From IMG/VR virus record IMGVR_UViG_3300033150_000749, positions 1 through 42,593 of that record: a stretch of DNA of 42,593 nucleotides; one strand, written 5' to 3'. The stretch is from a virus. Under the pieces are notes generated by a model. The model saw nothing but the letters and a program-made list of their open reading frames with translations. It ran no database searches and had not been told where the DNA came from. Positions 29,730 through 42,593 of this stretch are shown here, piece by piece; the stretch's first letter is position 1, and each line of letters begins with the position of its first letter. The position numbers and the translations under genes were made by a program.

Positions 29730-29744
29730 CAAGGGTATCCCCCA

Positions 29745-29792
29745 CCCCAATATATTGTGGAACCTTCTCGTGAGTACCCCAATATCTTGTGG
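29745..29792. repeat. Paired 16-bp sites, 32 bp apart
   Basis: CCCCAATATATTGTGG (29745-29760) and CCCCAATATCTTGTGG (29777-29792) differ at one base and each has a near-palindromic core. The 32-base period is about three helical turns, which would place two bound proteins on the same face of the DNA. Confidence 0.65.
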
Positions 29793-29808
29793 TGTGAGTG
29801 AAGGTAAG

Positions 29809-29983
29809 TTTGGCATGAGAATTGCTATAAGCAATTACCGTGCCAAACTTTGGCATGCGAATTGCACCCCAGCAACTGACGTACCAAAGTTTGGTAAGCG
29901 ATGTGCATATAGCAATCTGATTGCCAAACAGGGGCGGGTGAAAGAATGGCAAAGGACGTGCTTATAGCAATTACCGTGCCAAA
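29809..29983. repeat. Four 39-40 bp dyad repeats
   Basis: Units at 29809-29847, 29849-29888, 29890-29928 and 29945-29983. Each begins like TTTGGCAnnnnnnnTTGC, has a short, mostly TATA-type centre, and ends GCAA followed by TGCCAAA or TACCAAA. Outer TTTGGCA arms and inner ATTGC arms are both inverted. The first three are separated by one base; the fourth is 16 bases further. Such arrays serve as operators or as replication-origin iterons. Confidence 0.8.
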
Positions 29984-30004
29984 TATAGCCTCCAAACGAC
30001 CAGT

Positions 30005-30787: not shown

Positions 30788-30985
30788 TCATGCCTCCTCT
30801 ATAGGTGTGCCGTCGATGCGCCATGGACGACGGCGGTCGACCACATAGACAGACCGGTCAGAGTAGCCGCCCTGGCGGCGGCAGCCTCGACGGTCTCGCT
30901 CTAGACACCGCTCGGCCGCGGCATAGGTGCGATGGTAATGGCCGCACCAGCCACGGACTGGTCCGTAGGTTACGTACACTCGCAT
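30788..30985 (-). CDS. Basic hypothetical protein with structured leader, 65 aa
   Basis: ATG 30985 follows GGAG and lies 13 bases after the structured leader element at 30999-31060. The product (MRVYVTYGPVRGWCGHYHRT) has Cys/His and many Arg residues. It is unrelated in sequence to the other gene that carries the same leader. Function unknown. Confidence 0.62.
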   Translation of the reverse strand: MRVYVTYGPVRGWCGHYHRTYAAAERCLERDRRGCRRQGGYSDRSVYVVDRRRPWRIDGTPIEEA

Positions 30986-30998
30986 ATCTAGGCTCCAT

Positions 30999-31060
30999 GA
31001 CCCGAGTAGGGTCGAGCAACCTGCTGTGTCGACAGTAGGCTGGCCGCCCCCGCCCGAGTC
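30999..31060 (-). ncRNA. Candidate structured cis-regulatory RNA, copy A
   Basis: Transcribed leftward. The closing stem GACUCGGG (31053-31060) pairs with CUCGGGUC (30999-31006) over 8 bp including G-U pairs. The inner stem CCUACUGU / ACAGCAGG caps a CGAC loop. Single-stranded joining segments GGGGGCGGCCAG and GUUG...GACCCUA are nearly identical in copy B. The element ends just upstream of the ribosome-binding site of the 65-residue gene, the usual place of a translational riboswitch, protein-binding leader or put-like antiterminator. It matches no family I can recall. Confidence 0.6.
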
Positions 31061-31100
31061 TTTGCCTTCTCTTCCGGGCGATGAAAAAGCGAAAGGTCGA

Positions 31101-31136
31101 GCCAAAAAGAAAGGCCACCCCATGGCAGGGGTGACC
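31101..31136 (-). terminator. Leftward intrinsic terminator after the 87-residue gene
   Basis: On the minus strand GGTCACCCC and GGGGTGGCC form a GC-rich stem around TGCCAT, followed by TTTCTTTTT. It stands right after the stop of the gene ending at 31143 and before leader copy A. Confidence 0.75.
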
Positions 31137-31142
31137 AACGAG

Positions 31143-31406
31143 TCAACGCCCTGAGAACACCCGCCGGAGCCGGCGGGCGATAGGGCCGCGCCCGTAATGC
31201 CACAGGGAGCGGCAGTCCGCGCAGAGCTCGCGCGGAGTCTCCGGGATCCCGTGCGGCGGGAGCTCCGATAGCTCCCGCATGTACTCAGGGTCCACTCGCC
31301 ACGCCCGCTCAGGCGTGGTTCCGGCCAGTCCGCAGCCAGGACACTGGCCGGGCGCAACCTCTTCGCCTGCCGCTCGGCAGGCTTCTAGCTCCGTGATCCA
31401 CGTCAT
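31143..31406 (-). CDS. Zinc-ribbon-like hypothetical protein with structured leader, 87 aa
   Basis: ATG 31406 follows GAGGAGG. Cysteine pairs CPGC near residue 22 and CADC near residue 62 would form one zinc ribbon. The C-terminal end is basic (RGPIARRLRRVFSGR). The gene is preceded by leader copy B at 15 bases and followed by its own terminator, forming a self-contained leader-gene-terminator unit. Function unknown. Confidence 0.65.
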   Translation of the reverse strand: MTWITELEACRAAGEEVAPGQCPGCGLAGTTPERAWRVDPEYMRELSELPPHGIPETPRELCADCRSLWHYGRGPIARRLRRVFSGR

Positions 31407-31421
31407 CGCTCCTACCTCCTC

Positions 31422-31480
31422 GCCCAAGTAGGGTCAGTCAACCCACCAGCAAGTGATGGGCTGGCTGCCCCCACTTAGGC
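31422..31480 (-). ncRNA. Candidate structured cis-regulatory RNA, copy B
   Basis: Closing stem GCCUAAGU (31473-31480) pairs with ACUUGGGC (31422-31429) over 8 bp. Compared with copy A, at least four of these pairs change on both sides, keeping pairing (A-U to C-G, C-G to A-U, G-C to A-U, G-C to U-A). The inner stem CCCAUCA / UGGUGGG also differs in sequence but is conserved as a helix. Joining segments GGGGGCAGCCAG and GUUG...GACCCUA are kept. It lies 15 bases before the ATG of the 87-residue gene. Confidence 0.6.
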
Positions 31481-31520
31481 CTTCACCTTTTGATCGCTGG
31501 AAGAAAAGGCGAAGGTCGAG

Positions 31521-31555
31521 GGCAAAAAGGAAGGCCGCCCTTGCGTAGGGCGGCC
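31521..31555 (-). terminator. Leftward intrinsic terminator after the 119-residue gene
   Basis: GGCCGCCC and GGGCGGCC (31533-31555) form a perfect 8-bp GC stem followed on the minus strand by TTCCTTTTT. It stands 7 bases past the stop of the gene ending at 31563 and upstream of leader copy B, the same arrangement as the terminator at 31101-31136. Confidence 0.8.
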
Positions 31556-31562
31556 GAAGGGG

Positions 31563-31922
31563 TCACGCAGGAAGATCAATCCGGAAGGGGTCCAACGCGT
31601 AGTTGACCCCTTCCGTGACGAAAATCCGGCGGCACCCGTTGCAACGGGCCCGCCCGCCCTTCCGACGCCCTTGGGGGAACCCAAGCACCATCATTACTCG
31701 AGTTTGCGCACCACATGCCAAACACCGCAAGATGCAATCCTCTCCATAGGGGGGGTATACACCGACAGTTTCAACCTTTGCCCATCTGGTTGTTCCACGT
31801 ACCATCTTTCTGGCCTCCGTCTCCACAATAGCATACCTTCTACCCTGCGTCAACCCCTGCTGTAACTTATTGATACCACAACACTTGCATCTCACCCTAC
31901 CAACCACGCAAATCTTGCACAC
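31563..31922 (-). CDS. Zinc-binding hypothetical protein, 119 aa
   Basis: Cysteine pairs CKIC, CKCC, CLAC and CNGC could form two zinc-binding sites. A basic stretch (GFPQGRRKGGRARCNGC) suggests nucleic-acid contact. Several GTG codons (31922, 31907, 31895) could be starts and none has an excellent ribosome-binding site, so the N terminus is uncertain. It is the first gene of the left early block and reads away from the control region at 31923-32312. Confidence 0.55.
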   Translation of the reverse strand: MCKICVVGRVRCKCCGINKLQQGLTQGRRYAIVETEARKMVRGTTRWAKVETVGVYPPYGEDCILRCLACGAQTRVMMVLGFPQGRRKGGRARCNGCRRIFVTEGVNYALDPFRIDLPA

Positions 31923-32125: not shown

Positions 32126-32234
32126 GCGTAAGTGAGTGGTGAGTCAAGAGTCAGTGAGTCGTGAGTCAGGGTTGAGTGGTGAGTCAGGGTTAAGGCGCGA
32201 AAATTTTTTCTTCTTTGCTATCAGTCACTTACGC
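32126..32234. repeat. GAGTC/GAGTG repeat array flanked by a 10-bp inverted repeat
   Basis: GCGTAAGTGA (32126-32135) and TCACTTACGC (32225-32234) are exact inverted copies. Between them, 32132-32191 contains at least seven GAGTC or GAGTG units. The 13-mer GAGTGGTGAGTCA occurs exactly at 32134 and 32174, 40 bases apart, and GAGTCAGGGTT occurs at 32163 and 32181. Suggests a cooperative binding region or origin. Confidence 0.7.
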
Positions 32235-41243: not shown

Positions 41244-42593
41244 ACTTCGAGTATGAAGGAGACAAGCCGACGATCCTAGGCTTATCCCAGAACGGCATAG
41301 CGGCCTCAGCGCCTTGGGATGATTACTGCGGCCGGATCCTGCTGAGACTTGAGGAGGCTGGAGCAATCTGGTTGGGCTACAACTTCATCATGGCTGATCT
41401 TCCGTTGTTGACCGGTGTACTGGGGAAGCCGCCTAAGAGGTATGTTGATGTCATCCTGCTCTACTACCTCCTCAATGCTGACCTGTGCAAGAACGCGCCC
41501 AAGGATGAGGAAGACGAGGATCGTGGCAGAGGTTTTATGGACTTGTGGTCGATGGCGTCGTTGTACACGGACTTGCCTCAATGGAAACACTGCCGTGGAG
41601 AACTGTGCGAAGGGCCTTGTCCTGTGCACAATGTCTTCTACTACAACGCCCTGGACGCGCTGGCCTTGGAGCTTGCCTATCCCAAGCTGCTTCAGGAGCT
41701 GGAAGAGAAGAAGATCCCGGTAGAGCTGTACGACCACCTGCACAAGCTCACTCATGTCTGCTGGGCTATGGAGCAGCAAGGGATCAAGATCGACTGGGAG
41801 TATGTAGACTGGCTGTCTGAGCAGATTGACCGGACCAAGGCGGGTCTCTTCCCTTACCGGGAAATCTGGGAAGGGAAGTCTGGCAGGCGGCTGAAGCACC
41901 CACGTATAGAGTTCGACGCCCCGTTCAATCCTCAGTCACCCCGGCAGATCTTGGAGTGGTTCAAAGAGCAGAGGGTACCGCTGGAGTCTGCCAGCCTACA
42001 AGACCTCCATAAGGCTGCTGAGAGGATCGGCTTCAGTCACCCAGCTGCTCATTGGTTGGAGAAACTGATCAAGTACAAGGAAGCAGGTAAGGGGCTCAAA
42101 GCCTGGTTCGACCGCTCGCATGCTGGTAAGGATGGACTGATTTATCCCCGCTTCATCCCCTACGGCACCAGCACAGGGAGGCTTGCTTCTTCCGGCCCTA
42201 ACTTCCAGAATATTCCTCGTGTCGGCTGGGGTAAGCAGGTTCGTCGTGCTATTATCCCGCGTGATCCTTCCCTTGAGCTAGCCAAGGCAGACTATAGCCA
42301 GATTGAACTCCGCATGTGCCTCTGGTATGCGGGCGTAGAGGCTGATTTTGCTGACGCTTTCAGCTGGCTGGTTGAGCAAGTAGGACGGCCGTTCGAGCAG
42401 GCTGCTTCTTTGCCGTTCTGTACCTATGACAGCCCGAGAGACATAGCTAAGAGCGTAGGTCATGCCTGCCTCACGCCTGACCATGAAGTTTATACGGAGC
42501 AACGGGGCTGGGTAAGGATCGACCAGCTGAGACACGCCGACAAGGTACTGGTATGGGATCCAGGCACCTTCAGCACTTACTTCGCCTTCCCTC
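41165..42593 (+). CDS. polA: Family A DNA polymerase, N-terminal part, with start of a mini-intein
   Basis: GTG start at 41165 with AAAGGAGG at 41148-41155. The frame runs off the right edge and continues at base 3. The 3'-5' exonuclease domain has DFE (Asp27, Glu29), N73/D78 in GYNFIMAD and the third motif in YYNALDALALE, so proofreading residues are present. Polymerase motif A is KADYSQIEL (Asp376) and the first half of motif B is RDIAKSVGHA (Lys429). The intein begins at Cys435. Overlaps the glycosylase gene by 79 bases. It is the phage replicase. Confidence 0.96.
   Translation, partial: MAASLLYPKIYDAIRWEDFGAGPVAIDFEYEGDKPTILGLSQNGIAASAPWDDYCGRILLRLEEAGAIWLGYNFIMADLPLLTGVLGKPPKRYVDVILLYYLLNADLCKNAPKDEEDEDRGRGFMDLWSMASLYTDLPQWKHCRGELCEGPCPVHNVFYYNALDALALELAYPKLLQELEEKKIPVELYDHLHKLTHVCWAMEQQGIKIDWEYVDWLSEQIDRTKAGLFPYREIWEGKSGRRLKHPRIEFDAPFNPQSPRQILEWFKEQRVPLESASLQDLHKAAERIGFSHPAAHWLEKLIKYKEAGKGLKAWFDRSHAGKDGLIYPRFIPYGTSTGRLASSGPNFQNIPRVGWGKQVRRAIIPRDPSLELAKADYSQIELRMCLWYAGVEADFADAFSWLVEQVGRPFEQAASLPFCTYDSPRDIAKSVGHACLTPDHEVYTEQRGWVRIDQLRHADKVLVWDPGTFSTYFAFP
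42467..42593 (+). other. Mini-intein, N-terminal part
   Basis: Begins with Cys (TGC at 42467) directly after Ala of RDIAKSVGHA. Block A reads CLTPDHEVYTEQRGWVRIDQ and then ADKVLVWD, typical of the first splicing block. The rest continues at bases 3-437. Confidence 0.9.
42480..42593. repeat. Terminal direct repeat, copy of 1-114
   Basis: Exact copy of bases 1-114; marks the circular overlap. Confidence 0.97.

Follow-up and report, generated by a model that had tools for sequence, protein, structure and literature searches.

Known intercistronic RNA elements in phages

The closest described counterparts of the leaders reported here are the RNase III sites between the early cistrons of phage T7. 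Five of them (R0.3, R0.5, R1, R1.1 and R1.3), taken at their known cut positions, serve as the yardstick. When folded, each forms an imperfect hairpin with an internal loop in the middle of the helix. Four of the five cuts fall 27-35 nt before the next start codon, while the fifth (R1.1) lies 120 nt away. RNase III requires little sequence conservation, and the sites of T7 are not known to have a terminator ahead of every one of them.

Other phage systems use structured RNA differently. The put sites of HK022 are found upstream of the terminators they act on. The virus leaders can be likened to the put RNAs by layout, as both are two similar structured RNAs placed early in an operon, but the virus elements sit after terminators and against the SD site. 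The mobile regulatory cassettes of the T4 type consist of a promoter and a stem-loop. These cassettes, too, are regulatory units located between genes, and their stem-loop, which resembles a terminator, recurs ahead of genes that are unrelated. In the virus, however, no promoter was found inside the unit and an extra long hairpin is present at the SD.

Genomic context of the leaders

The window, i.e. the whole stretch of DNA that was analysed, is an entire virus record (G000) of 42,593 nt with 55% G+C. A perfect 114-bp direct terminal repeat (1-114 is identical to 42480-42593) suggests that the genome is complete. Terminase, portal and capsid genes are encoded on the minus strand and replication-type genes on the plus strand, and the small minus-strand genes are positioned between these two blocks. 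The carrier is best explained, if only tentatively, as a tailed phage with the leader module in its leftward small-gene operon. The genes and signals of this run are:

31853-31825, minus strand: promoter-like site TTGACG-17-TATTGT, at the start of the small-gene run
31805, minus strand: ATG of gene 1, after the promoter-like site and before terminator T1
31143-31406, minus strand: gene 2 (ATG 31406), 87 aa with CxxC pairs
30788-30985, minus strand: gene 3 (ATG 30985), 65 aa, arginine-rich
30089-30061, minus strand: later terminator, ahead of the terminase region

Read along the minus strand, the order is promoter-like site, gene 1, T1, leader B, gene 2, T2, leader A and gene 3; two more ORFs follow before the later terminator. 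A second promoter-like site was looked for from 31825 to gene 3 and none was found, nor was there one inside the duplicated unit described below. Terminator read-through is therefore the likely source of the leaders. The product of gene 2 has no match above the cut-off in the families searched, and that of gene 3 shows a weak match to phrog_33449 (unknown function). Comparison of the two bears out the first-pass annotation, which had described the genes behind leaders B and A as mutually unrelated. The frame of gene 3 is also open on its 5' side (30788-31357), running through leader A and the terminator and over much of gene 2.

The long hairpin P3

The first-pass annotation had located twin elements of about 60 nt on the minus strand, and both were recovered at those positions:

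30999-31060, minus strand: element A (P3), 25-bp imperfect hairpin with four 1x1 mismatches, core GGGGGCGGCCAGCC / GGTTGCTCGACCCTACT
31422-31480, minus strand: element B (P3), likewise an imperfect hairpin, with about 25 bp, core GGGGGCAGCCAGCC / GGTTGACTGACCCTACT

A closing stem and a separate second stem had been proposed for these elements. Instead, each folds as one continuous imperfect hairpin interrupted by 1x1 mismatches. The predicted energies are -35.7 kcal/mol for A and -42.9 kcal/mol for B. Both minus-strand folds are more stable than those of shuffled sequences (z of -4.6 for A and -6.1 for B, vs. -3.4 and -3.3 for the plus strand). Among the 66-nt windows of the minus strand of the genome, element B ranks first in stability and element A sixth among distinct places. 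As had been claimed, P3 ends 13 or 15 nt 5' of the ATG (30985, 31406), against the SD site.

Stable hairpins at 13-15 nt from a start codon could also serve as a passive stabiliser or insulator of the mRNA, blocking nucleases and shielding the SD from upstream structure without any specific partner. This explanation is unlikely, as it leaves the conserved core unaccounted for: 28 of the 34 core columns of P3 are identical in the two copies vs. nine of 28 elsewhere (Fisher 8e-5, with boundaries picked after inspection).

Covariation and the folding strand

Aligning A with B yields 25 pairs in P3. Of these, 15 are invariant, two of which have letters in only one copy; five carry a change on a single side and another five on both. 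None of the ten changed pairs is broken, and over all 25 pairs 0 of 48 cells are unpaired. The paired columns contain 15 changes, every one of them a transition. When transitions are placed at random in a simulation, about 4.5 pairs are broken on average and zero broken pairs occur in 0.4% of runs. If 20% of an equal number of changes are transversions, this outcome is seen in <0.02%. The accompanying shuffle control returned 18 of 500, a weak test as only two sequences are available.

At least four pairs of the closing stem had been said to differ on both sides. This is true only if the elements are aligned end to end without gaps. When the conserved GACCCTACTYGGG is kept in alignment instead, the closing stem has one pair changed on both sides, and the four others are located higher in the hairpin.

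G-U pairs occur in the minus-strand P3, five of them in A and four in B; the same positions could not pair on the plus strand, so that the conserved entity is the minus-strand RNA. Plus-strand folding was considered and is disfavoured, since five (A) and four (B) P3 pairs turn into A/C mismatches. Covariation and G-U pairs agree with the earlier reading that a structured minus-strand RNA is what is conserved. The RNA leader is real, covarying, strand-specific and duplicated once.

The larger duplicated unit

The duplication is larger than the 60-nt unit of the first-pass annotation, including a terminator and a further hairpin (P2) that had been overlooked. The stretch 31001-31145 matches 31423-31565 over about 145 nt at 65.8% identity, and the unit consists of terminator, U-tract, P2 and P3, ending at the SD site:

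31533-31555, minus strand: T1, intrinsic terminator behind gene 1, with a 9-bp stem and U-tract 31532-31524, folds alone
31113-31136, minus strand: intrinsic terminator T2 after gene 2
31480-31515, minus strand: P2 of copy B, 12-bp stem with internal loop and two more pairs
31064-31090, minus strand: P2 of copy A, 8-bp stem with two inner pairs
31415-31421, minus strand: SD of gene 2, GAGGAGG
30991-30996, minus strand: SD region of gene 3, GGAGCC, part of the predicted P1 fold

An intrinsic terminator thus stands before each element, as had been noted (T1, 31555-31533; T2, 31136-31113), and the distance from the end of the terminator stem to the start of P3 is 52 nt in each copy. P2 lies between the U-tract and P3 in both; in copy B one position is shared, the first base of P3 being the last base of P2. 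Among the twelve P2 pairs compared there are two with changes on either side, and copy A has two broken pairs; in this copy CUUU/AAAG can extend the stem outward beyond two mismatches.

A selfish or neutral duplication, in which an intergenic segment shuffles genes and the structure persists because the event is recent, would explain why the whole stretch from terminator to P3 is doubled. It is nevertheless highly improbable, since the copies have diverged by about 34% and yet the ten changed P3 pairs all pair.

From the order of terminator, P2, P3, SD and gene it follows that P3 can act on the downstream RNA and not on the preceding terminator. A role of P3 in attenuating that terminator was rejected, since P3 is transcribed after it. 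The same order bears on a put-like antitermination, whereby the nascent P2/P3 RNA would modify RNA polymerase and allow read-through of T2 and of the terminator at 30089-30061. In its favour are the twin structured elements close to a promoter-like site, in an operon with several terminators. However, each element lies downstream of its nearest terminator, on which it cannot act, and upstream of later ones. This weakens the role, as only later terminators could be affected, and the tight placement at the SD is left unexplained; a put-like function is therefore very unlikely.

Unguided folding from the terminator to the codons gives the same arrangement in both copies, namely the terminator followed by [P1 (P2)(P3)], with the SD region as the 3' strand of P1. 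The candidate P1 of copy A pairs GGCTC (31103-31099) with GAGCC of the SD region (RNA GGCUC/GAGCC). In the centroid fold of copy B, CCTCG (31521-31517) pairs with CGAGG (31422-31418; RNA CCUCG/CGAGG), and a longer pairing competes with P1. A three-way junction with a closing helix over the SD is possible in both copies according to these folds. Shuffling of the 5' flank gave 0.17 (A) and 0.89 (B) for P1, which is not significant on its own, and P1 was rejected as an established helix for want of support from this shuffle.

Such a junction, whose closing helix would contain the SD, is also the point of resemblance to translational riboswitches and protein-operator leaders. These differ from the virus elements, for which neither a family nor a ligand is known and the closing helix has no statistical support. 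The main rival explanation is a translational leader that binds a regulator, as a protein operator or in the manner of a riboswitch. A ligand or phage protein bound to the P3 core would alter the cover of the SD by P1, one signal thereby governing two unrelated genes. It would fit the conserved P3 core between variable arms (with the caveat on boundaries given above), the P1/P2/P3 fold found unguided in both copies with the SD in P1, and the unrelatedness of the two downstream genes. Against it stand the lack of significance of P1 alone (0.17 and 0.89), a core made up of single mismatches that offers little room for a small-molecule pocket, and the lack of an Rfam match and of a copy elsewhere in the collections searched. 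On balance a leader of this kind is possible but somewhat unlikely. A phage-specific RNA switch, in which a three-way junction reads a protein or ligand through the P3 core and so exposes or masks the SD of the two genes, is rather unlikely.

Comparison with the T7 RNase III sites

The virus leaders share several traits with the early intercistronic sites of T7. In both cases imperfect hairpins of similar length are repeated ahead of unrelated genes. The conserved G of GACCCTA, beside a mismatch, precedes the start codon by 28 nt in one leader and by 29 nt in the other. As in T7, a long mismatched hairpin recurs within one operon, directly ahead of unrelated genes and some 30 nt upstream of their start codons. 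Moreover, in the leaders the core is kept while the arms are freer, and in T7 the upper stem and loop are, by eye, common to the sites.

There are also clear differences. The mismatches of the leaders are symmetric (1x1), whereas the internal loops of the T7 sites are mostly asymmetric, so that cutting could occur on both strands or elsewhere. The virus hairpins are more stable and G+C-rich, and a terminator and a second hairpin precede each copy. A covariance model of the leaders gave no significant match in the T7 early region, hence no sequence homology. Judged from sequence and fold, the likeness is one of form and place, not of kinship.

Searches for other copies and relatives

No Rfam family was matched at gathering or relaxed thresholds, in line with the initial impression that the element belongs to no known family. 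The best sub-threshold hit, suhB at 23.2 bits (cut-off 41), falls on the terminator hairpins. The first-pass annotation had also proposed a search for further copies, and none was found in the collections searched, which speaks against a widespread new family. Viral contigs were scanned with four patterns, three of them strict and one relaxed, and genomes with a pattern; exact motif patterns gave no further copy in either. The relaxed pattern retrieved at least 119 viral stretches, 80 of which were searched with the covariance model. The best E value among the matches listed was 0.17, and a recurring group, again among the matches listed, appeared at about 0.8-1.2. The best match and one example of the recurring group were inspected; both lie within ORFs and were taken as chance. 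A pattern for the 3' half was present in three viral contigs, none of which (0 of 3) fitted the covariance model. A DNA similarity search of phages and plasmids returned nothing useful.

Relatives were sought via terminase, capsid and portal, yielding one full genome (G001), one short contig and one relative with 44% terminase identity. G001 is the nearest full relative (terminase 73% and capsid 83% identical); it contains no match to the covariance model and encodes other ORFs at the corresponding place. The element was not visible in the short contig, which is from nearly the same virus and stops inside element A, nor was it seen in the 44% relative, whose contig does not clearly span the corresponding place. 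In the collections searched, the element is thus known from one virus, in two copies. Riboswitches are recognised by an aptamer conserved across many genomes; here, no copy occurs outside this phage in these collections.

Proposed role as processing and translation-control leader

The explanation preferred here, tentatively and at somewhat less than even chances, is an intercistronic leader for processing and translation control that would work like the T7 RNase III sites. These fit best because of the repeated 60-nt imperfect hairpin by the SD, with mismatches 28-29 nt before the start codon. Processing is further favoured by the 25-bp hairpins with zero broken among ten changed pairs. One transcript from the promoter-like site (31853-31825) would span the genes, and read-through of each terminator would place P2 and P3 directly ahead of the ribosome-binding site that follows. 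The most likely role of P3 is that of a T7-like processing site, specific for double-stranded RNA, in which host RNase III would cut in or near the mismatched middle, perhaps assisted by another factor that reads the conserved core. The cut would part the downstream cistron from the upstream RNA while the ends keep a protecting structure, and it might free the SD that P1 can cover.

Two further observations temper the assignment to RNase III. As the enzyme needs little sequence conservation, the conserved core may indicate a specific binder. In addition, the related phage G001 gets by without the element, which weakens the RNase III reading. The sequence matches none of the catalogued RNA families, and the element is most likely a signal of a general kind that is already known.

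In a single genome of an uncultured phage, the duplication of the element sufficed to reveal a covarying, strand-specific regulatory RNA. Should it be a processing site, then the T7 strategy of one hairpin per cistron has also arisen in a sequence family unrelated to it; a switch would represent a new RNA family. Such elements can be lineage-restricted, as a phage with a 73% identical terminase does without it.

Other features of the record

An ORF for a Family A DNA polymerase is found at 240-1040, its N-terminal part ending in an intein-like VHITGN|S before the polymerase match; the gene probably continues over the record ends. Near a promoter-like site on the plus strand (32266), an 18-nt repeat resembling TGAGTSGTGAGTCAGGGT occurs three times (32133-32190). 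A near-identical pair of 17-nt repeats, ACCCCAATATMTTGTGG (29744-29760 and 29776-29792), lies in the gap ahead of the terminase genes.

In the G001 locus L003, purine-rich GAAGAAAAAGCGAAAGG-like repeats are followed by a complementary stretch (2450-2545 and 2680-2700). The plus strand of the P2 region in the window is similar, possibly by coincidence. An array of imperfect palindromes, TTTGGCAYG..GAATTGC..TATA..GCAATT..CGTGCCAAA, occupies 29806-29992 ahead of the terminase genes, and a similar array is present at the corresponding position in G001 (L003 5296-5470). These arrays are probably operators or a packaging/replication site.
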